A DNA stretch of 64,000 bases, taken from assembly GCF_000956545.1 (NCBI RefSeq), contig NZ_JYIT01000074.1, positions 1-64,000 on the forward strand, in the 5' to 3' direction. Both the position numbers and the translations under genes were made by a program. Below are positions 19,122 to 38,982 of this stretch, one piece after another. The stretch comes from Microbacterium azadirachtae. Lineage in GTDB: Bacteria > Actinomycetota > Actinomycetes > Actinomycetales > Microbacteriaceae. Under the pieces are notes generated by a model that saw only the letters and a list, made by a program, of their open reading frames with translations, was not told the DNA's origin and ran no database searches. The number at the start of each line of letters is the position of its first letter. The first letter of the stretch is position 1.

Positions 19122-20606
19122 ATGGCAACTCCCGAAGCAGTAAGTTCGACCCCACCCCAGACTGACGCTCCCTTGAAACGCGAGCTCGGGCTCTATGCGT
19201 CCTTTGCTGTTGCGTTCGGCTTCGTGTCGATTGCGACGGGCATCTTCACCACCTACGGTGCGGTACTAAATAGCAGCGGTCCACGCGGGATCTGGGCGTG
19301 GCCCATCGCCGTCATCGGGCAGACGATGGTCGCCCTCATTTTCGGGGCGCTCGCTGCTCGCATCCCGATCAGTGGCTACGCTTACCAATGGGTGTCCCGT
19401 CTCGCGAATCCCCTCCTCGGGTGGCTCACCGGCTGGATTTCTTTCGCGTTTCTTGTGGTCGTGGTGGTCGCCGTCGACTACACGATCGCTGCGACGATTC
19501 TTCCCGAACTGTTCGGGTATGCCCCCACGCCGGCGAATTGCTGGGTCATCACGGCGGTTGTCATGCTGCTGCAGGCGGTCCTTGTCGCCCTCAGTACAAA
19601 TGTCACCAACCGTGTCAACGAGGTTGCTGTCACCGTTCAGATCGTTGGCATGGTCGGCATCACCGTCCTTCTTTTCGTTGTGGGTGCCGTCATCGGTCGT
19701 CTTGACTTCACTCACCTGTTCGAGACCGCACCTGTCGCTGAGGTGTCCTACTGGGACTTCGGCGGCCTCAGCAACGCCGGCCCGTTCCCGTTGGCGTTCC
19801 TTCTGGGGGCGTTCACCATCGTGGGATTCGAGTCCGCCGCGAACCTCGCTGAAGAGACCAAGAACCCCGAGCGAGTCATCCCCCGCGCCATGGTCCAGGC
19901 CGTCGTCGCCCTCGGAGTGTTGGGAATGCTGTTCCTCGTTGCGGTGACCGCGCTCGCGGACAACACCGTGGAACTTGCGAAGTCGGCGACGCCTGTCGCA
20001 ACCGTCATCACGTCGGTGCTCGGCCCCGTTGTGGGGAAGATCCTGCTCGTGCTGATCGTCGTGTCGATCTTCTCCTGCGGGCTCGTCATCACGCTCAGTG
20101 GTACTCGTCTGGTGTGGGCAATGTCCCGTGACGAGCGTTTCCCGGCATGGCAGCTTCTCCGCAAGGTCAGCCGCAATCGCCATACCCCCGTTGCTGCCAC
20201 CATCGGCTATTTTGTGGTCACGCAGGCGATCCTTGCGATCTTCAGCGGCACCAGCGACGCGCTATTCGTCCTGTTCTCGGCCGCGACGTTGCTTCCCGCC
20301 ATCATCTACGCGGGCACTGTTCTTCTCTACATTGTCAAGCGCAAGTCGTTGCCCGCCAGCAAAGGCTTCACGCTCGGACGCTGGGAGATCCCGGTCCTGG
20401 TGCTGGCCAGCATCTGGCTGATCTACGAGCTCCTGATCTTCCGCGATGCGTCGTTCGAACAGCCGCGACTATACGTCGGCATCATGCTGGTTGTCGGAAT
20501 CGGCTATCTCGTCTACCTCGTCGCCACGCGCGGACGTAAGGGCCTTTCGATGCCCGACATGCAGGACGTCGACCGAGCGTTCGACGACAACACTATTTCT
20601 AAGTAG
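19122..20606 (+). CDS. APC-superfamily permease (amino acid/amine type)
   Basis: Twelve-helix secondary transporter of 494 residues. The APC signature near the N terminus reads LGLYASFAVAFGFVSIATGI, and the conserved cytoplasmic segment AEETKNPERVIPRAM follows around residues 245-260. Homologues move amino acids, polyamines, GABA or ethanolamine with protons or by exchange. It is the first gene behind the HutC operator and leads a set with an FAD oxidoreductase, FGGY kinase and RidA. A nitrogenous substrate is therefore likely. AAGG lies upstream of the ATG. Confidence 0.88.
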   Translation: MATPEAVSSTPPQTDAPLKRELGLYASFAVAFGFVSIATGIFTTYGAVLNSSGPRGIWAWPIAVIGQTMVALIFGALAARIPISGYAYQWVSRLANPLLGWLTGWISFAFLVVVVVAVDYTIAATILPELFGYAPTPANCWVITAVVMLLQAVLVALSTNVTNRVNEVAVTVQIVGMVGITVLLFVVGAVIGRLDFTHLFETAPVAEVSYWDFGGLSNAGPFPLAFLLGAFTIVGFESAANLAEETKNPERVIPRAMVQAVVALGVLGMLFLVAVTALADNTVELAKSATPVATVITSVLGPVVGKILLVLIVVSIFSCGLVITLSGTRLVWAMSRDERFPAWQLLRKVSRNRHTPVAATIGYFVVTQAILAIFSGTSDALFVLFSAATLLPAIIYAGTVLLYIVKRKSLPASKGFTLGRWEIPVLVLASIWLIYELLIFRDASFEQPRLYVGIMLVVGIGYLVYLVATRGRKGLSMPDMQDVDRAFDDNTISK

Positions 20607-20636
20607 CACGGCACCACTATCGAAAGAGGACCCATC

Positions 20637-21794
20637 ATGAGTTCGCATTCCCCGTCCCACACCATCGCCATCATCGGCGGGGGCATCGTCGGGTCGGCCC
20701 TGCTGTACACGCTGGCCCATCGTGGCGTCGATGCGATCCTGTTCGAGGCGGAACCTGAGCTCGGGCTCGGCGCAAGCGGCACGAACTCCGGCGTGCTACA
20801 CACCGGGTTCGATTCTGCCCCCGGACAGCTCGAGACGGACCTGATCCTGCGCGCCGCTCGCATACGCCCTGCAGTCCTCCACGCGCTCGACGTACCCGTC
20901 ATCCACGCCGGCGCGGAACTCGTCCCCCACACGAAAGAGGACAATGACACCATCCGCCATCTCGCCGCCAATGCCGCCGCCAACGGTGTCGAGGTCGCCA
21001 TCAGAGAATCCGACGGGGCACTGCTGGTGGCAGGAGAATCCGTCAGCGACCCGGTCGCGTTCACCTTGGCGCTGGCCGAGTCCGCGCAAGCGGCCGGTGC
21101 CGCCGTCGAGGTGAATGCGCTGGTGACCGGGATCACCTCTCACACCGACGGTCTCACGCTCCAGTTGGCCGATGGCCGGACCTTCGCCGTCTCCGCCGCG
21201 ATCAACGCCGCGGGACTCTACGCCGACGAGATCGCACGCCTGGTCGGCGATGACTCCTTCGAGATCTACCCTCGCAAGGGAGAGTTCTTCGTCTTCGAAC
21301 TCCCCGACAGGCAGACCCTCGACAGGATCATCCTCCCGGTCCCCACCAAACGCACCAAAGGCGTGCTCGTCTTCCCAACCCTCGACGGCAAAGTCGTCGC
21401 CGGACCCACAGCCGTCGATCTTGAGGACAAGAAGGACTGGGGTGTGCGCCCCGAAGCGCAGGACGAGATCCTCAGCAAAGCCGTTCAACAGTTCCCGACG
21501 CTGGAGGGCCTCACCCCCATCGCGAGTTACGCCGGGCTGCGCCCAGCAGGCCGCGGCAGCAACTACATTATCGAGCGCTCCGCCGCCAATGACCGTCTCA
21601 TCCACGTCGCTGCGATCCGTTCCACTGGCCTCACCGCGTCCCTCGGCATCGCCGATTACGTCGCCGCCGAGCTCCTTCCGGATCTCGGCATCGCTGTCGA
21701 CCCGCTGCGCCCGACCACCAAGGTCAGCATGGCACCTAGCAACGGGCCGTGGTGGCAGCGAACCGCACGCCATCACGCAGCCGATAACTCATGA
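20637..21794 (+). CDS. FAD-dependent oxidoreductase, DAO family (GlpA/LhgO-like)
   Basis: Flavoprotein of 385 residues in the DAO superfamily. The dinucleotide-binding loop IAIIGGGIVGSALLYTLAHRG is at residues 9-29, followed by LGLGASGTNSGVLHTGF, characteristic of glycerol-3-phosphate dehydrogenase (GlpA) and L-2-hydroxyglutarate oxidase relatives. The C-terminal region has SYAGLRPAGRGSNYIIE and IRSTGLTASLGIADYV. The (S/N)SGVLHTG segment favours oxidation of a phosphorylated polyol or hydroxyacid. With an FGGY kinase just downstream, a plausible order is phosphorylation followed by oxidation of the phosphoester, as for glycerol. The real substrate is unknown. Confidence 0.85.
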   Translation: MSSHSPSHTIAIIGGGIVGSALLYTLAHRGVDAILFEAEPELGLGASGTNSGVLHTGFDSAPGQLETDLILRAARIRPAVLHALDVPVIHAGAELVPHTKEDNDTIRHLAANAAANGVEVAIRESDGALLVAGESVSDPVAFTLALAESAQAAGAAVEVNALVTGITSHTDGLTLQLADGRTFAVSAAINAAGLYADEIARLVGDDSFEIYPRKGEFFVFELPDRQTLDRIILPVPTKRTKGVLVFPTLDGKVVAGPTAVDLEDKKDWGVRPEAQDEILSKAVQQFPTLEGLTPIASYAGLRPAGRGSNYIIERSAANDRLIHVAAIRSTGLTASLGIADYVAAELLPDLGIAVDPLRPTTKVSMAPSNGPWWQRTARHHAADNS

Positions 21795-21857
21795 CTCCCG
21801 GTGCGGGCGCACCGTTCGATCGCGCCCGCACCCAACTGGACCCGAAGGGCGCACACC

Positions 21858-23273
21858 ATGACCACCGTTCTAGCGATCGATCAAGGAACATCCGGCACGA
21901 AAGCTGTCGTCGTTGGTCCAGACGGCGACGTTCTCGCCCTCAGCGAAGTCTCCGTACGGCCTACCTACCTCCCTGGCGGCGGAGTCGAACACGACCCGCA
22001 CGCCATACTCGACTCCGTCCTGCGGGCCGGACGCGTCGCTGTCAACATCGCCAAAGCCGACATCGACATCGTCACGCTCGCTAACCAAGGCGAAACGGTC
22101 CTCGCCTGGGACCCGGACACCGGCCGCCCCCTCTCCGACATGATCGTCTGGCAGGACCGCCGCGCAGAGTCCATCTGCACCGACCTCCACGAGCACGCCA
22201 GCGATATCGCGCAACGCACCGGCCTCGTTCTCGACCCCTATTTCTCCGCCCCGAAACAGGCCTGGCTGCGACGCAATATCACCACCGACGGTGTCGTGAC
22301 CACCTCAGACTCCTGGCTTCTGCACCAACTCACCGGCGAGTTCGTCACTGATGCTTCCACCGCAAGTCGATCCCTCGTCCTCGACATCGACACCGCTGAC
22401 TGGGACCGCGACCTCCTTGCACTCTTCAACCTCCAAGAGGAACGACTCCCGGAGATCCTCGCCTGCGACGAGATCGCCGGCAGCACCAGCGCCTTCGGCG
22501 GCACCTCCGCCGTTGGCGGACTCGTCGTCGACCAACAGGCGGCACTCGTCGCACAACGCTGCCTCTACCCCGGAGAAGCCAAATGTACCTTCGGTACCGG
22601 CGCGTTCCTCCTCGCTAACACCGGACGCACCGCAGTGCGGTCCACCGCAGCCCTCTCTTCCTCCATTGCCTGGCAGCAAGGAGGCCGGACAACCTACTGC
22701 CTTGACGGGCAGGTCTACACCGCTGCCTCCGCCGTCCAATGGCTCGAGAAACTCACCTTCATCGACACCGCAGCAGACCTCGACCGCGTCGCCGCAGAAG
22801 ACTCACACGGAGTCCTCTGTGTCCCCGCGCTCGCCGGCATGGCTGCACCCTGGTGGCGCCCCGACGCAACCGCAACGTTCACCGGAATGACACTGTCAAC
22901 CGGCAGCGAACACCTCGTACGCGCCGTACTCGAAGGCATCGCAGCCCAAGTCGCAGAACTCGCGGCAGCCATGTCCGTCGACCTCGACCAACCACTGCAA
23001 CGCCTCCGCGTCGATGGCGGGCTCACCCAGAGCAGGGTCCTCATGCAAGCCGTCGCCGACTTGATGCGCATCCCGGTTGACGTCTACCCCTCCCAACACG
23101 CCACGCCCCTCGGCGCCGCCGCACTCGCCCGATGCGCAGCAAACCCCGAACTCTCACTGGACGACGCAATCATCAATTGGTCCCCCTCCACGACATACGA
23201 ACCCCAATGGTCAAACGACCGCGCAACCGAGTTCTCCACCCGATGGCGCGCCGTCGCCGACTCCCTCTCCTGA
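21858..23273 (+). CDS. FGGY-family carbohydrate kinase (glycerol kinase-like)
   Basis: ATP-dependent kinase of 471 residues. It begins TTVLAIDQGTSGTKAVVVG, the phosphate-1 loop, and has the glycerol-kinase-like MIVWQDRRAE segment. CTFGTGAFLLANTG is the phosphate-2/adenosine region and RVDGGLTQSRVLMQAVADL the ADP-binding motif. The ATG at 21858 is chosen because homology starts there; a frame extending to 21801 does not look coding. The closest style is GlpK. The operon (APC permease, DAO oxidoreductase, RidA) is unusual for glycerol, so another polyol or amino-alcohol is possible. Confidence 0.87.
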   Translation: MTTVLAIDQGTSGTKAVVVGPDGDVLALSEVSVRPTYLPGGGVEHDPHAILDSVLRAGRVAVNIAKADIDIVTLANQGETVLAWDPDTGRPLSDMIVWQDRRAESICTDLHEHASDIAQRTGLVLDPYFSAPKQAWLRRNITTDGVVTTSDSWLLHQLTGEFVTDASTASRSLVLDIDTADWDRDLLALFNLQEERLPEILACDEIAGSTSAFGGTSAVGGLVVDQQAALVAQRCLYPGEAKCTFGTGAFLLANTGRTAVRSTAALSSSIAWQQGGRTTYCLDGQVYTAASAVQWLEKLTFIDTAADLDRVAAEDSHGVLCVPALAGMAAPWWRPDATATFTGMTLSTGSEHLVRAVLEGIAAQVAELAAAMSVDLDQPLQRLRVDGGLTQSRVLMQAVADLMRIPVDVYPSQHATPLGAAALARCAANPELSLDDAIINWSPSTTYEPQWSNDRATEFSTRWRAVADSLS

Positions 23274-23295: not shown

Positions 23296-23673
23296 ATGAG
23301 CAAACGCCAGAACATCTCCTCCGGCTCCCCGCGCGAACCCATCCTCGGCTACTCACGAGCCGTGAGAGTAGGGAACCTCGTCTTCGTCGCAGGAACCACG
23401 TCCGGCGGCATCGGGGACACCGCCGCCAAGCAGACCCGCGAGATCTTCACCCGCATCGAGAACGCCCTCACCCAAGCCGGCGCCACACTCCAAGACATCG
23501 TCCGCACCCGCGTCTTCCTCACTGACATGGCCGACTTCGACGCCGTCGGCACCGTACACGGCGAGCTCTTCCGAGACATCCTCCCCGTCACCTCCACCAT
23601 CGGCACAACCGCCCTCGCCGCCCCCGACATCCTCGTCGAAATCGAAGTCGACGCCGTACTCGGAACAAACTAA
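23296..23673 (+). CDS. RidA-family enamine/imine deaminase
   Basis: RidA/YjgF-family protein of 125 residues. RidA hydrolyses reactive enamine/imine intermediates to keto compounds and ammonia in the cytoplasm. The conserved Arg in IVRTRVFLTD and the C-terminal acidic VEIEVDAV are both present, as is the N-terminal YSRAVRVGNLVFVAGTT. AAAGGAAA precedes the ATG. It is the fourth gene of the HutC-controlled operon. Its presence with an FAD oxidase suggests the pathway makes an imine, supporting a nitrogen-containing substrate. Confidence 0.9.
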   Translation: MSKRQNISSGSPREPILGYSRAVRVGNLVFVAGTTSGGIGDTAAKQTREIFTRIENALTQAGATLQDIVRTRVFLTDMADFDAVGTVHGELFRDILPVTSTIGTTALAAPDILVEIEVDAVLGTN

Positions 23674-23796
23674 GCGCAGTCGCGACCAAACACCACGAAG
23701 TTGCCGTCAACGCGGGTCGGCTTCCGGACGGTGGTGGAGCCCATCGCCCCCCGCTCCTTCCACCCGCCACCGTCAGGGATGCGACCAAGCTTCCTT

Positions 23797-24586
23797 ACCT
23801 TAAACGCACCAGCGCCTCGTCGGCGACGGTTCACTCGCTGACAACAGGGTCGTGGTCACGGCGTTCGGATGTGTTGTGATCGCGGTGATGATGTGGGTGT
23901 CCCTGCGCGGCGTCCAGATCGGTGAGCGGATGCAGCAGGTGCTGCTCGCGATCCAGTACCTTGCGATGGCCGCTTTCGTCATTGGATGCCTCGTCGGCTA
24001 TTTCACCGGCAATGCTCCGAAGCCCCCGGCGCCCGCTCTTGACTGGTTCAACCCGCTCCTCGCTGACGGCCACGGAATGGTGCAGGCGGTCTTGCTGGCC
24101 CTGTTCATCTATTGGGGATGGGACACATGCCTCGCCCTGACCGAGGAGACCCGAGACCCGCGCCGTACGCCCGGTCGGGCAGCGACGCTCTCAACGGTGA
24201 TCCTTCTCATCACCTACGTAGCCGTGACGGTCGTCACGATGATGTACGCCGGCATCGGTGACACCGGCACGGGGCTGGCCAATGCCGACCATGCGGACGA
24301 TGTCTTCTCCGGTCTCGCTGGCATGGCGCTCGGCCCGATGGGATGGTTCCTCGTCGTCGCCGTCGCGGTCTCGGCGCTCTCCTCGTCACAGACGACGATC
24401 CTCCCCACGGCCCGCGGCACGTTCGCGATGGGCATATACAAGGCCCTCCCCAAACGCTTCGCGGCGCTGCACCCCGTGACCCAGACGCCGACGTTTTCCA
24501 CCCTGCTCATCGGTGTCGTGGCGATCCTCTATTACGCAGGGATGAACCTCGTCTCCACCAGCGTCCTCTCCGACTCCGTCGTCATC
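23797..24586 (+). pseudogene. APC-superfamily permease remnant (both ends missing)
   Basis: The frame reads as the middle of an APC permease: VVVTAFGCVVIAVMMWVSLR, the conserved ALTEETRDPRRTP loop, and SSSQTTILPTARGTFAMGIY. It ends in NLVSTSVLSDSV, where family members normally continue into further membrane helices. The N-terminal helices are absent; a stop codon precedes the open frame at about 23794 and no good start is seen. At about 24583 the frame passes directly into a flavin amine oxidase. Confidence 0.8.
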
Positions 24587-25900
24587 GGTGCAGGCATCGC
24601 CGGGATCACCACCGCACGGCTGCTGCGACAAGCGGGCCAGAACGTGGTGATACTCGAGGCACGAGACCGTATCGGCGGGCGCATGTGGACCGACCGCGAT
24701 GCCGGATTCCCCGTCGATCGCGGGGCCTCATGGATCCATGGCCTGATCGGCAATCCACTGACCCCCCTGGTGGAATCGCTCAACATCCGCACTCTGGAGT
24801 TCACGGTAGGTGCCTACCAAGCCGGTGGGCGCCCGATCAGCAACTTCGATGCGAATAACGAGCCGCTCGATACACGACGTACCGATGCGTGGCTTGAGGA
24901 CGCGAGCATGGCCGACGAGCTCCTCGCTGACGCGATCGCTGCATCGGCTCCCGGTACCAACTATGCGCATGCAGTTGAACGTGCTGTCGCCGCTTTCGAC
25001 GCGGACGCGGCCCGAAAACGACAAGTCCATGAATTTCTCCACCACCGCACCGAAGAGCAATGCGGCGCAGAGAGCTCGGAGGTCGATGCGCACGGTTTGG
25101 ACGAAGACATCATTGAAGGTGACGAAGTCGTCTTCCCCGATGGTTACGACACCCTCCCCCGCATGCTCGCCGAGGGCCTCGACATCCGTCTTGGCCGGGT
25201 CGCCAAGACGATCGAGCGGACGACAGCCGGCGTGCGTGTGCGAACGGAGTCCGAGTCGTTCGATGCAGCGCACGTCGTAGTGACTGTGCCGCTCGGCGTC
25301 CTAAAAGCCGGTGACATCGACTTTGATCCGCCCCTGCCTGAAACGATCACGGCCGCGATCGAACGCATCGGCATGGGAGTCTTCAACAAGATCTTCCTCC
25401 GCTTCCCCGAACGATTCTGGGCCGACGGCGTCTACGCCATTCGCCAACTCGGTTCTCCGAGCCACCCATGGCATTCCTGGTACGACGTGTCCGAGATCAG
25501 CGGCGAACCGATGCTGCTCACCTTCGCGGGAGGAGCGTGGGGACGCGAGATCGAGAGCATGGACGACGAGGACATCGTCGACTCGGTGGTCACCTCGCTT
25601 CGACGCATGTACGGCGACGCGGTACCGTCGCCAGTGGCGCATTGGATCACTCGCTGGGGCGCCGACGAGTTTAGCCGCGGCTCCTACTCCTACATCGCGG
25701 TCGGCGCTTCCCATGACGACCACGATGCGATTGCCGAGCCCGTAGCCGACGTACTGCACTTCGCCGGAGAGGCCACGTACGGTGCCGAACCGGCGACGGT
25801 TCACGGAGCGCTCCTCTCAGGGCATCGGGCCGCTGAACGAATTCTCGGTCGGACGGTTCCGCTGAAGACACTACCTGGGACTCAGCACGCGCCCCGTTGA
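23852..25900 (+). CDS. Chimeric ORF: truncated APC permease fused in frame to flavin monoamine/polyamine oxidase
   Basis: One 682-codon frame. Residues 1-244 are permease remnant. From residue 245 it is a flavin amine oxidase: VVIGAGIAGITTARLL (FAD-binding loop), EARDRIGGRMWTD, DRGASWIHG, VVTVPLGVLKAGDIDF, and the C-terminal FAGEATYGAEPATVHGALLS. The oxidase lacks only the first few residues before its FAD loop. An in-frame ATG at 24542 (MNLVSTSVLSDSVVIGAG) would give a near-complete oxidase of about 452 residues without membrane helices, so activity may survive. Amine oxidases convert primary or polyamines to aldehyde, ammonia and peroxide with FAD. It lies 178 bp after ridA, so it probably belonged to the same amine pathway. 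The joint looks like a deletion scar. Confidence 0.8.
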   Translation: MVTAFGCVVIAVMMWVSLRGVQIGERMQQVLLAIQYLAMAAFVIGCLVGYFTGNAPKPPAPALDWFNPLLADGHGMVQAVLLALFIYWGWDTCLALTEETRDPRRTPGRAATLSTVILLITYVAVTVVTMMYAGIGDTGTGLANADHADDVFSGLAGMALGPMGWFLVVAVAVSALSSSQTTILPTARGTFAMGIYKALPKRFAALHPVTQTPTFSTLLIGVVAILYYAGMNLVSTSVLSDSVVIGAGIAGITTARLLRQAGQNVVILEARDRIGGRMWTDRDAGFPVDRGASWIHGLIGNPLTPLVESLNIRTLEFTVGAYQAGGRPISNFDANNEPLDTRRTDAWLEDASMADELLADAIAASAPGTNYAHAVERAVAAFDADAARKRQVHEFLHHRTEEQCGAESSEVDAHGLDEDIIEGDEVVFPDGYDTLPRMLAEGLDIRLGRVAKTIERTTAGVRVRTESESFDAAHVVVTVPLGVLKAGDIDFDPPLPETITAAIERIGMGVFNKIFLRFPERFWADGVYAIRQLGSPSHPWHSWYDVSEISGEPMLLTFAGGAWGREIESMDDEDIVDSVVTSLRRMYGDAVPSPVAHWITRWGADEFSRGSYSYIAVGASHDDHDAIAEPVADVLHFAGEATYGAEPATVHGALLSGHRAAERILGRTVPLKTLPGTQHAPR

Positions 25901-28538: not shown

Positions 28539-29312
28539 TTAATTTGCTTCCTCCGAGCCGACATTGGCCCTGAGCACAAGCTCGTTCAGAGCTCGACCCA
28601 GCGCGTCGACAAACCCATCGGCTTCCGCGATCGTCAGAACGAGAGGCGGCTTCACCTTCTTAACGTTCTGCCTTTCCGAGGTCGCTTGCATGATCACGCC
28701 GAGCTCCAATAGGCGCTCACACACCCACGCGGTCTCCCGGTCTGCGGGCTCGAGGGTCCCCCGGTTACGGACCAGCTCGACGCCGAGATAGAGCCCTCGC
28801 CCGTGGACGGCCCCGATCAGAGGATGCTGCTGTGCGAGGTCGGCCAGTCGTCGACGCAAATGCTCCCCGACGACCGCCGCGTTCTCCATCAGTCCCTCAT
28901 CGCGGATCACGTCGAGCACGGTGCTGCCGGCGATAGCGCTTGCCGGGGCGCCGCCTGCCGAGGAGAAGAACATGCCCTCGTCGCGCAGCGCGTCCACGAT
29001 CTCGCGCCGGGTGATCACCGCACCAACGGGGTAAGCGTTGCCGGCCGCCTCCGCCACCGCGATGATATCGGGGACAACGCCACCATCTCAGCCCCCCCAG
29101 AACGCGGCCCCCAATCGCCCATAACCGACCTGCACCTCGTCGGCGATCGCCAGGCCACCGTGACGACGAACTGCATCGTACGCGCCGGCGAGGTATCCAT
29201 CCGGGGGGATGACCCCGCCCGCGTTACCCAGAACGGGCTCACAGATGAAGGCCGCAGGTGCCCGGCCCTCGCCGTCGAGTCGCGAGGTAAGGATCGCGAG
29301 CCAAAGCGTCAC
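28539..29312 (-). pseudogene. Class III aminotransferase remnant (N-terminus lost, internal stop)
   Basis: The C-terminal two-thirds of a PLP-dependent class III aminotransferase. From about 29312 downward it reads APAAFICEPVLGNAGGVIPP, DEVQVGYGRLGAAFWGG, then a TGA at 29090-29088. The same frame resumes DGGVVPDIIAVAEAAGNAYP, FSSAGGAPASAIAGSTVLDV and VKPPLVLTIAEADGFVDAL. The PLP-lysine region around EAAGNAYPVGAVI lacks the usual Lys-containing G-K-P context, which suggests further decay. The N-terminal third is gone; sequence upstream belongs to an FtsX permease on the opposite strand. It probably used an amino acid or diamine donor when intact. Confidence 0.78.
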
Positions 29313-29313
29313 C

Positions 29314-30296
29314 GCCCTCACTCCCGCCGACATCGAGACTTTGGATGCCATCAAGGGCGTTCGCAGCGTCGATGCCACCTGCACTATCACTCCCGGCTAC
29401 ATCCGGGCGATGGCAAGCGGTTGGTCACCTCCGTCGGAAGCCTCATCCCCGGCAGACCGCCGTCCTTGACACGGGCCGCAAGCCCGTCCCGACTCTGCGA
29501 CCCAAGAGGTCGCGCTGCCCCTTGCCTACGTCAAGCCTCTCGGCTTCAACGGCGGCGAGGACGCGATCGACAAGACCGTCTCCATCGGCATCACCGATGC
29601 CAACCGCACCCAGCACACGCTCGAAGCCACAGTCGTGGCTGTCACAGCAGACGCGCTCGCCAGCCCCACAGGATCCAACATCTTCGTCAACGACGCCCTC
29701 AGCGACGCACTGTTCGACACTCAGTCCACCGGCCTGACCGCCGAGCATGCTGACCGATACGCCTCCGCCACGGCCTGGTTCGATCCGAAAGCCACTGACG
29801 ACGAGATCCAGACCCTGAAGGACCGCCTAGCCGACAAGGGGTACACCGGGACCACGATCGCCGATCACCTCGGGACGATCACCACGGTCATCGACGGGAT
29901 CGTGCTCGTTCTCAAAGCCTTCGCGGTCATCGCTTTGCTCGCCGCGACCTTCAGCATCGTGAACACCCTCTACATGTCCGTGCAGGAACGCACCCGCGAG
30001 ATCGGCCTCCTGAAGGCGATGGGCATGGGATCCGGTTCAGCGTCGAGGCCGCGTTCCTCGGCTTCCTCGGCATTGCCGTCGGCGCGGGGCTCGCGATCCT
30101 CGCCGGCGTCGATATCAGCGGCGCACTCTCCGCGGGATTGCTCGCCGACCCACCTGGGCTCACCCTGATCGCGTTCGACCCCGCCTCGATCGCCACGATC
30201 ATCGTGCTCGTCATGCTCATTGCGTTCGTCGCCGGCACCCAGCCCGCGGCCAGGGCCGCGCGCAAAGACCCGATCGATGCTCTCCGCTACGAGTGA
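29314..30296 (+). pseudogene. Degraded FtsX-like ABC permease, copy 2
   Basis: Pieces of one FtsX/MacB-type permease lie in successive frames. VTALTPADIETLDAIKGVRS with VDATCTITPGYIRAMASG spans about 29314-29420. EVALPLAYVKPLGFNGGEDA and on through LKDRLADKGYTGTTIADHLG and TREIGLLKAMGMGSG span about 29500-30035. After a frameshift near 30035, FSVEAAFLGFLGIAVGAGLA and on to ARKDPIDALRYE ends at the TGA 30294-30296. The last part is the complete normal C terminus. The N terminus is missing at the junction with the aminotransferase remnant. The partner ATPase gene is absent. Confidence 0.78.
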
Positions 30297-36142: not shown

Positions 36143-36486
36143 CTTTCCCTTTTCGCCGATCCAGCCCGCAGCCAGGCACGACCGACGTTACAAAATCCGG
36201 CGTGTGCCAGACGAGACGACGCGTTGATGTGCCGCAGGGCTGAGCCTGCGGGCCATGTGCGAGCCAGAGCTTCCGTACCCTAAACAGGCTTTCGCACTCC
36301 ATCAGGCAATCTGCCATAGGCGTCATCGCCCCACCTCGCAAGACCGGTCCCTTCTTGTGACTCCGAAGCCGACGAAGTTTCGAAAGACCGGCTGTGGATG
36401 CGGCAACACCTGTTCCTAACGGACTTCCGAAACTCCCTGCCCATTCAGTTTCTGTGCCGTCTTGCAAAACCGACCCGAAACCCTCA
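36143..36486. other. Upstream region of the pilus operon
   Basis: About 340 bp with no gene. It contains a small hairpin, CCGCAGG/CCTGCGG around 36233-36252, and presumably the pilus promoter. No ribosome site of normal strength is seen immediately before the pilin ATG. I see no riboswitch I can name. Confidence 0.35.
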
Positions 36487-38982
36487 ATGAAAACCCGTCA
36501 AGTAGGCCGGGCGAAGAAGCGGTGCCGAGGCGACCGTAGCCCGTTTTCCTCATATGCGCGCCGCGGCGTGCTCACTCTTTGCGTAGCCGCCTTGCTGGTG
36601 CTGTCTTCCATGACCATCCAACGCGCGCAAGACGCGAACGCGACTGTCGCGGGTACGCCGGGAACAACGCAGCCTGGTACGCCCGTATACACGGAAGACT
36701 TCTCGAACCACACTGCCGCATCGGGCGCCATCAATGTCATCGGGTACACCGGTGGGGCCGCAGCCGGCAACATGTCCTACACCGCAGATTGGCAGTACAC
36801 GCCAGCGGCAGGCCAATGCAACGGCTGGATTCTCCGTTCAACCACGCCAACTCCGATGACCGACCTCGGATGCTACAACAATCAGTCGACGGCATGGGCG
36901 TCGCTTCAGGACATGGCGATACAGCTCGGCCTCGCGCAGGGTCAGACGTCTTCCCAAGCAGTTGCAAACCAGGCATTGTCTGAGTCGACCAACGCTCCCT
37001 CGGGCGCCATCGCGGCGGGAACGGAGCTTAAGACAGCTAGCGCAGGTGGTATACCTGCAGTGCCCGGCCATTATTACGCCATCTCCGGCTATTTCGCGGC
37101 TGCAAACTGCCCCGCTCAAGGTGGAAATTCCATTCCTCGCGAGACGCTCAGCATCATCATCAATGGAGCGATCACGCCACTTTCGAGCGGTCTAACGCCC
37201 TGTACAGACCTTACGAACTGGGGCGTACAGGTGAAGAAGCTGCAGTCCGCCGCGATCCAGATCCCCAGCGGATCGAACGCCTCGTTGGGCCTGTCGATCT
37301 ACAACGCGACGGCGACAGGCAGCGGCAACGATGTGGCATTCGACCTTCCGCAGATCGTCGACGTGACTCCACAGTTGGACAAGGCGTTCAGCCCAGCCCT
37401 GATCGCTCCTGGCCAGACCTCCACGGTGACGCTGACAGTCACGAACACCAGTGACCTGATGGCGAAAACGGACTGGAGCATCACCGATGCGCTTCCGGCA
37501 GGTCTTGTGATTGCCCCGAACCCGGCAGCGGGTGGCACCTGCGCACAGGCGGCGGGTAACGCGTTCGTCCGGACAGCCGTGGCAGGCAGCAACGTCTTCT
37601 CCGCCACGGGCGGAGACCTGGCCCTCAATCAGGCCTCGTGCACTCTTACGTTCGATGTGACTGCCGCCGCCGAGGGCACCTATATCAACGGGCCCGGCAA
37701 CATCACCTCGAACCTGAACCCGCCCGCTAACGCCACACTCACGGTGCGCGCACCGCGCATCACCTTGAACAAGGCGCTTGCCACGCCGCGCGTAGCGGCC
37801 ACCGACCAGTTCACGATGGCGATCCGCACGGGTGGAGCGTCCGGGACCGTCGTGAATAGCACTGCGAACTCGACCACCACGGGGGCCGGATCTACAGTCA
37901 CCGCGGGAACAGGGACAACCGGTACGTACGTGGCAACAACTGGTACCGCATACAGCCTTACCGAGGCCTCTTCCGGGACCACGGTGTTGGGTAACTACTC
38001 CGCCACCATTAGCTGCACTGACATTGCTGGGCTACAGACCGGGTTGCCTAATGGTGCTGTCTACAACCCCGCCGCACCCCCAACGATCACCCCGATCGCC
38101 GGCGTTAACATCGCCTGCACCATCACCAACAGTGCCCTGCCGATCCTCTCCTATAGCAAGGACGTCGATAAGGGCGCGGGGACGCTCGTGAATCCCGGGG
38201 ACACCCTTACTTACACGCTCTCCATCGTGAATTCAGGGTCGGTTCCGTCAGCGACGATCGCCGCGTTCGATGACCTCACCAACGTTGTCTCCATGGCGTC
38301 CCTGAACACGAGCTCGATCACCATCACCCCCGCCGGTACCGGAGCCGCGACGTATGACGCGACGACGAAGAAGCTGACCTGGACGGGAATCGTCCCAGCA
38401 AACACGACGATCCGCGTCTCCTACACCGTCACCGTCAACGCTGGAGCCTTCGGTCAACTCCGGAACGCGTTCATGGGCAAAACCGTCACCAACCCGATCG
38501 GCGCCAGTCTGCAATGGCGGAAGATCGATGCCACCGTCGCGAAGAATGGACTCACCGCGGCTACGTGGACTCTGACCCCCGTGAACGGGGCAGGACAGCC
38601 CACGGGGACTGCTATCACCATCACGGACTGTGTCTCGACTCCCTGCACGGTGGCGGACACCGACCCGGCCGGTGGACAGTTCCTCGTGAAGGGGCTCGTT
38701 CCTGGGACCTACCAGCTTGTTGAAACCAAAGCTCCCAGCGGCTACGTGTTGAACCCCACGCCAATCAACGTCACCGTATCCGCGGCAACGCAGACCACGG
38801 TGCTCGCCGACGTCGTGAACCAACAGGCACCCCCCATCGTCTTGCCCCTGACCGGCGGCTTAGGGACAGATGCCATCGCCTACGGCGCGACCGCGCTGCT
38901 GGGACTCGCCGCCGCACTGATCATCTGGCAGCTCCGCCGCCGACCACGCCTGGAGGAGGGGCAACGACACGTGGCCCCCTGA
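36487..38982 (+). CDS. LPXTG-anchored pilus tip/minor pilin with DUF11-like and Cna_B-like domains
   Basis: Large surface protein of 831 residues. The N-terminal signal has a hydrophobic core at about 28-41 and probable cleavage near residue 52. A long unique region (to about 290) could be the adhesive head. DUF11-like modules follow, starting near residue 298 (DKAFSPALIAPGQTSTVTLT) and 556 (YSKDVDKGAGTLVNPGDTLT). A Cna_B/SpaA-like domain lies near 675-775 with the E-box LVETKAPSGY that supports isopeptide bonds. The sorting signal LPLTG is near 786, followed by a membrane helix and Arg-rich tail. LPLTG is a variant of LPxTG. It heads an operon with a shaft pilin and two sortases, so it is probably the tip or ancillary pilin. 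The ATG at 36487 is placed by the signal peptide. Confidence 0.87.
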   Translation: MKTRQVGRAKKRCRGDRSPFSSYARRGVLTLCVAALLVLSSMTIQRAQDANATVAGTPGTTQPGTPVYTEDFSNHTAASGAINVIGYTGGAAAGNMSYTADWQYTPAAGQCNGWILRSTTPTPMTDLGCYNNQSTAWASLQDMAIQLGLAQGQTSSQAVANQALSESTNAPSGAIAAGTELKTASAGGIPAVPGHYYAISGYFAAANCPAQGGNSIPRETLSIIINGAITPLSSGLTPCTDLTNWGVQVKKLQSAAIQIPSGSNASLGLSIYNATATGSGNDVAFDLPQIVDVTPQLDKAFSPALIAPGQTSTVTLTVTNTSDLMAKTDWSITDALPAGLVIAPNPAAGGTCAQAAGNAFVRTAVAGSNVFSATGGDLALNQASCTLTFDVTAAAEGTYINGPGNITSNLNPPANATLTVRAPRITLNKALATPRVAATDQFTMAIRTGGASGTVVNSTANSTTTGAGSTVTAGTGTTGTYVATTGTAYSLTEASSGTTVLGNYSATISCTDIAGLQTGLPNGAVYNPAAPPTITPIAGVNIACTITNSALPILSYSKDVDKGAGTLVNPGDTLTYTLSIVNSGSVPSATIAAFDDLTNVVSMASLNTSSITITPAGTGAATYDATTKKLTWTGIVPANTTIRVSYTVTVNAGAFGQLRNAFMGKTVTNPIGASLQWRKIDATVAKNGLTAATWTLTPVNGAGQPTGTAITITDCVSTPCTVADTDPAGGQFLVKGLVPGTYQLVETKAPSGYVLNPTPINVTVSAATQTTVLADVVNQQAPPIVLPLTGGLGTDAIAYGATALLGLAAALIIWQLRRRPRLEEGQRHVAP

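Follow-up and report, generated by a model that had tools for sequence, protein, structure and literature searches.

Introduction

The closest counterpart that we found for the locus described here is a pair of genes in Agromyces. In Agromyces allii (L023) and A. lapidis (L026), an APC permease (503 and 509 aa, respectively) and a flavin amine oxidase are encoded by separate neighbouring genes, in the same order as the two parts of our locus, and a further Agromyces genome (G750) likewise carries the two as separate neighbours. The pair is also present in Leucobacter, where the proteins are 53-56% (permease) and 47-53% (oxidase) identical to the halves studied here, and at some of these loci 0.7-1 kb or more separates the two frames. 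Six Curtobacterium loci hold a more distant permease (~40-42%) on the opposite strand.

We have analysed the first 64,000 nucleotides of a 94.6-kb contig from the draft genome of Microbacterium azadirachtae (4.04 Mb in 86 contigs), and refer to this whole stretch as the window. The original prediction had described within it an in-frame chimera of a truncated APC permease and a flavin amine oxidase. With a probability of roughly 0.88, we read this chimera as the deletion scar, or remnant, of an Agromyces-type permease-oxidase two-gene unit in a Microbacterium genome.

Results

A single open frame of 698 codons occupies positions 23804-25900 on the + strand, opening right after a TAA (23801-23803) and terminating at the stop at 25898-25900. 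It passes from a piece of an APC permease into a near-whole flavin amine oxidase with no stop between them, and Pfam places AA_permease_2 (PF13520, E 6.2e-19, profile positions 109-352 of 427, both ends thus being absent) immediately ahead of a full-length Amino_oxidase domain (PF01593, E 3e-83, positions 1-443 of 443). The residues across the junction are NLVSTSVLSDS/VVIGAGIAG. This confirms the central claim of the original prediction, that the permease runs into the VVIGAGIAG motif of the oxidase without a stop; the start that it gave, 23797, has to be abandoned, as it lies outside the fused frame and ahead of the TAA. The first usable start of the fused frame is a GTG at 23852, which would yield a product of 682 aa.

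To find relatives, named species genomes were scanned with the 698-residue frame and the best 80 of 570 related stretches were kept. Among these best 80, permease and oxidase halves alike have their nearest match in a single Agromyces pair, and the three Agromyces loci give 82% protein identity for the permease and 64-66% for the oxidase. The comparison with intact relatives that had been proposed alongside the prediction thus came out as expected, with separate neighbouring permease and oxidase genes in all three Agromyces genomes, and it also suggests how the joint arose. The deletion junction (24571-24580, + strand) reads CGACTCCGTC and contains the bases CGAC, which are common to the permease and the oxidase of the relatives in the same codon phase. 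The window tracks the Agromyces permease as far as CGACTC and the Agromyces oxidase from CGAC onwards. In the three Agromyces loci the distance between the two CGAC sites is 436, 444 and 502 bp, so a deletion of ~440-500 bp in that arrangement would produce the joint seen in the window. It would take away the last ~119 residues and the stop of the permease, the spacer, and the first 2-4 residues of the oxidase. Judged from the relatives, the joint is in frame because a GAC codon stands in the same phase in both genes. Any join of two coding frames stays in phase one time in three, so the open frame alone is no sign of selection. The exact homology shared at the junction amounts to four bases, a length equalled or exceeded in ~3% of joints placed at random in these stretches; we therefore rejected microhomology as strong evidence of mechanism, and regard a short-homology deletion as plausible on the sequence.

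The permease fragment (23811-24576, + strand) has also lost its beginning. Homology to the Agromyces permeases starts at ~23811, which corresponds to residue 131 of the A. allii protein and residue 138 of that of A. lapidis, so that the first 130-137 residues of the relatives are missing as well as the last ~119, and the complete transmembrane core represented by AA_permease_2 is not there. Essential parts of the gene have gone from both ends, as in a pseudogene, and because its ends are missing we infer that the permease half is dead and unable to act as a transporter. The proposal that a deletion took the permease end and the oxidase start therefore stands, supported by the separate genes of Agromyces and Leucobacter and by the CGAC joint, but it was incomplete in that it overlooked the loss of the permease start. 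No close second copy of the permease was found in the M. azadirachtae genome, where the next best match is 40% identical.

Adjoining this 5' truncation is a remnant of ~17 codons of an IS481-type transposase (23748-23798, - strand), which is 76% identical over 17 aa (E 0.002) to a frame at another locus (L106) with the domains rve, rve_3 and LZ_Tnp_IS481. The remnant matches an element present in at least seven copies in another genome (G037) over 34 bases at 88%. Of 199 genomes of the family searched, 24 others match it weakly (E 6e-5 to 0.007), in many cases inside transposase-sized frames. Its position beside the truncation suggests that an insertion element was probably involved in the loss of the permease start. 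A search of the M. azadirachtae genome with the L106 transposase did not find a full IS481 copy, an empty result that carries little weight. On the opposite strand (23711-23738, + strand), a further match to this transposase motif spans just 8 residues (E 2.0) and could be a second remnant or chance.

The Agromyces relatives served as proxies for the ancestor (DNA identity ~79% for the permease and 68-70% for the oxidase). Against the three loci, the permease fragment gave a dN/dS of 0.13-0.15 and the oxidase one of 0.23-0.26, both within the ranges found among the three intact Agromyces pairs (0.09-0.18 and 0.23-0.31), and decay in the form of raised dN/dS is not seen. Between the window and A. 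allii, dN was 0.115 for the permease and 0.272 for the oxidase, a proportion similar to that between A. allii and A. lapidis (0.064 and 0.129). In an alignment of oxidases (A1), the 11 other sequences have 125 invariant columns, of which the window sequence loses six, the second highest count of the 12 (the others, left out in turn, lose 0-7). The permease fragment departs from three of 106 columns that are otherwise invariant, the joint highest count among 20 sequences (of the 19 others, one also loses three, one loses a single column and 17 keep them all). Clear decay is thus absent from these comparisons, with perhaps a slight excess of change. As the dN/dS values lie within the range of intact pairs the event looks recent, and the deletion is probably young relative to the split from Agromyces, so far as the sequences can tell; the dN/dS and column tests say little about selection since the deletion. 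Base composition was also considered. At 0.83 in the permease half and 0.72 in the oxidase half, GC3 resembles that of adjacent genes (0.73-0.83) and is lower than in the Agromyces genes (0.94-0.98). These values do not point to a very recent transfer from Agromyces, and foreign composition or fresh arrival from that genus was rejected on these grounds.

The oxidase half (24571-25900, + strand) is whole except for 2-4 N-terminal residues. It retains at its N-terminus VVIGAGIAG, which we take to be the GxGxxG dinucleotide-binding motif of Amino_oxidase, and in A1 the residues G16, A17, G18 and G21 of this motif are invariant. This half looks structurally intact, and amine oxidation would be its predicted activity. 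The start codon and ribosome-binding site that it once had are gone, and it is therefore probably silent or translated poorly. Any product would arise from an internal start, for instance the ATG at 24542, and would be an ordinary soluble amine oxidase. The original prediction had noted that an in-frame ATG at 24542 would give an almost complete oxidase with a 12-residue foreign leader (24542-24577, + strand) ahead of the FAD motif. That holds for the protein; a Shine-Dalgarno match was not found 3-12 bases ahead of this ATG, so that expression from it is putative. More broadly, no GGAGG core was found 3-12 bases ahead of any of the 22 in-frame starts between 23852 and 24542, the best matches being of six bases to the GTGATC/GGTGAT end of the consensus. 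An AGGG directly touches the ATG at 24542 and was left out by this spacing rule.

Less probably, the oxidase half is still expressed and working, the deletion having been a tolerable re-wiring that placed it behind another promoter; translation would then start at the ATG at 24542 or, leaderless or coupled, inside a transcript from upstream. Expression is favoured by the retention of 119 of the 125 invariant columns and by an AlphaFold2 model of the 24542 product (mean pLDDT 78.7), in which the first Rossmann strand, at residues 7-15, is partly built from the foreign leader and whose neighbours among solved folds include LSD1, LSD2 and maize polyamine oxidase. This conservation mostly dates from before the deletion, however, and besides the missing Shine-Dalgarno match and the six lost columns, the model falls below a pLDDT of 50 at residues 44-58 and nearby. 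In addition, the same genome carries a related and apparently intact oxidase elsewhere (G000:C84, L002; ~67% DNA identity), which reads complete in translation and adjoins what is presumably nusA, named from its translation, so that loss of the oxidase half would be tolerable.

A much bolder alternative is that the whole frame is translated as a membrane-tethered oxidase, a new two-domain protein. The frame is indeed open from 23804, with the GTG at 23852 and several in-frame ATGs available as starts, but in the permease part both the N-terminal 130-137 residues and the end are missing, and such an architecture did not recur elsewhere. Fused homologues, which would have spoken against the original prediction, were sought among 128 loci, 114 with a permease match and 38 with an oxidase match, five that hold both being the window's own copies. 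Frames were checked where the match lies on the + strand of the locus, which covers all 17 distinct places once. These 17 relative loci, each counted once, carry both genes on one strand, and none has a fused frame; the two genes are mostly direct neighbours and all lie within ~2 kb. We therefore rejected a natural permease-oxidase fusion family, the only fused frames among the 128 loci being the window's own copies. At E <= 1e-25, none of the 365 other Microbacterium genomes showed the junction; in this genus search (366 genomes including its own), G261 matched in the oxidase part only. No permease was found among the frames beside the oxidase match at L104. In a search of 59 genomes of the genus, each of the matches listed for other genomes falls within one half, permease or oxidase, and does not reach across the joint. 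Of the 12 plasmid records that matched at E <= 1e-30, none spans 80% of the fusion. Taken together with the truncations, these results make a translated two-domain protein very hard to credit. An assembly error at the junction, for which the draft state of the genome in 86 contigs could speak, is just as improbable, given that the ~4 bp common to the relatives at this point are too short an overlap for usual assemblers to merge on, that the joint is in frame, that the permease is cut at its other end too, and that the assembly yielded no close copy of the permease parts that are missing.

Further genes surround the chimera. Upstream lie a full-length RidA-type gene (Ribonuc_L-PSP; 23296-23673, + strand; PF01042, E 6.5e-28, profile positions 7-120 of 121) and, at 19122-23273, a cluster of an APC permease, a DAO-type oxidase and an FGGY (glycerol-kinase-like) kinase. 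These APC-DAO-FGGY genes occur in other members of the genus: of three genomes read around the cluster, two (G268 and G225) carry it at 79-88% protein identity, and the third (G361) is without this APC match and has a DAO at 33%. In G225, RidA is located elsewhere, away from the cluster. Downstream, an EamA stretch matched only in its own genome among 366 searched at E <= 1e-60; an empty site was not found, nor was a sister genome with the intact pair at the same place.

The chimera lies in a neighbourhood with other broken genes. A class III aminotransferase remnant (28542-29390, - strand) matches its profile in two pieces (191-243 and 260-403 of 403) with an in-frame stop between, leaving the first 190 positions unmatched. 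An FtsX-type permease remnant (29470-30165, + strand) covers only positions 2-40 of the 120 in the FtsX profile and has an apparent frame shift near 30030; by position, its 5' end faces that of the aminotransferase remnant. Further along, the large protein encoded at 36394-38979 combines SpaA/prealbumin-like with DUF7933/DUF7927 domains and probably belongs to the cell surface.

Discussion

The history that best fits these observations would begin with an ancestor in which an amino-acid permease gene was followed by an amine oxidase gene. One deletion, ~440-500 bp when sized in the relatives, would have joined a late GAC codon of the permease to the GAC at residue 3 of the oxidase, in frame, and a separate event beside the IS481-type transposase remnant would have taken the permease start. 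The order and mechanism of these events are what we infer from the traces that remain. Counting for a deletion scar is the shared affinity of both halves for a single Agromyces pair. Set against it are the 698 codons without an internal stop and the dN/dS values in the intact range, with which decay is not demonstrated, and the shared CGAC, which at 4 bp is weak evidence. We think it very unlikely that translation of the fused frame gives a new, retained oxidase anchored in the membrane by half a permease, or that a new promoter and leader have put the oxidase to a different use. There is no evidence here for a new protein family, and the event that we propose is an ordinary one.

Even so, the probable deletion scar calls for caution in annotation, where gene-calling software could list a 682-aa 'permease/amine oxidase' protein at this place. 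It also illustrates neatly how a deletion that joins two adjacent genes can yield an open chimeric frame through chance of phase, amid other broken genes.

Compared with known systems, the chimera is like the A. allii and A. lapidis pair in its two families and their order, at 82% and 64% protein identity, and differs in that Agromyces has two complete, separate genes with a spacer, whereas here they are fused and the permease is cut at either end. The oxidase at G000:C84 belongs to the same family as the window oxidase and differs in its location, in its apparent completeness and in having no permease fragment beside it. Although the chimera shows no sign of retention as a functional fusion, it is like the general class of fusions made by deletion between neighbouring genes in its in-frame joint and in the loss of a stop, a spacer and a start.
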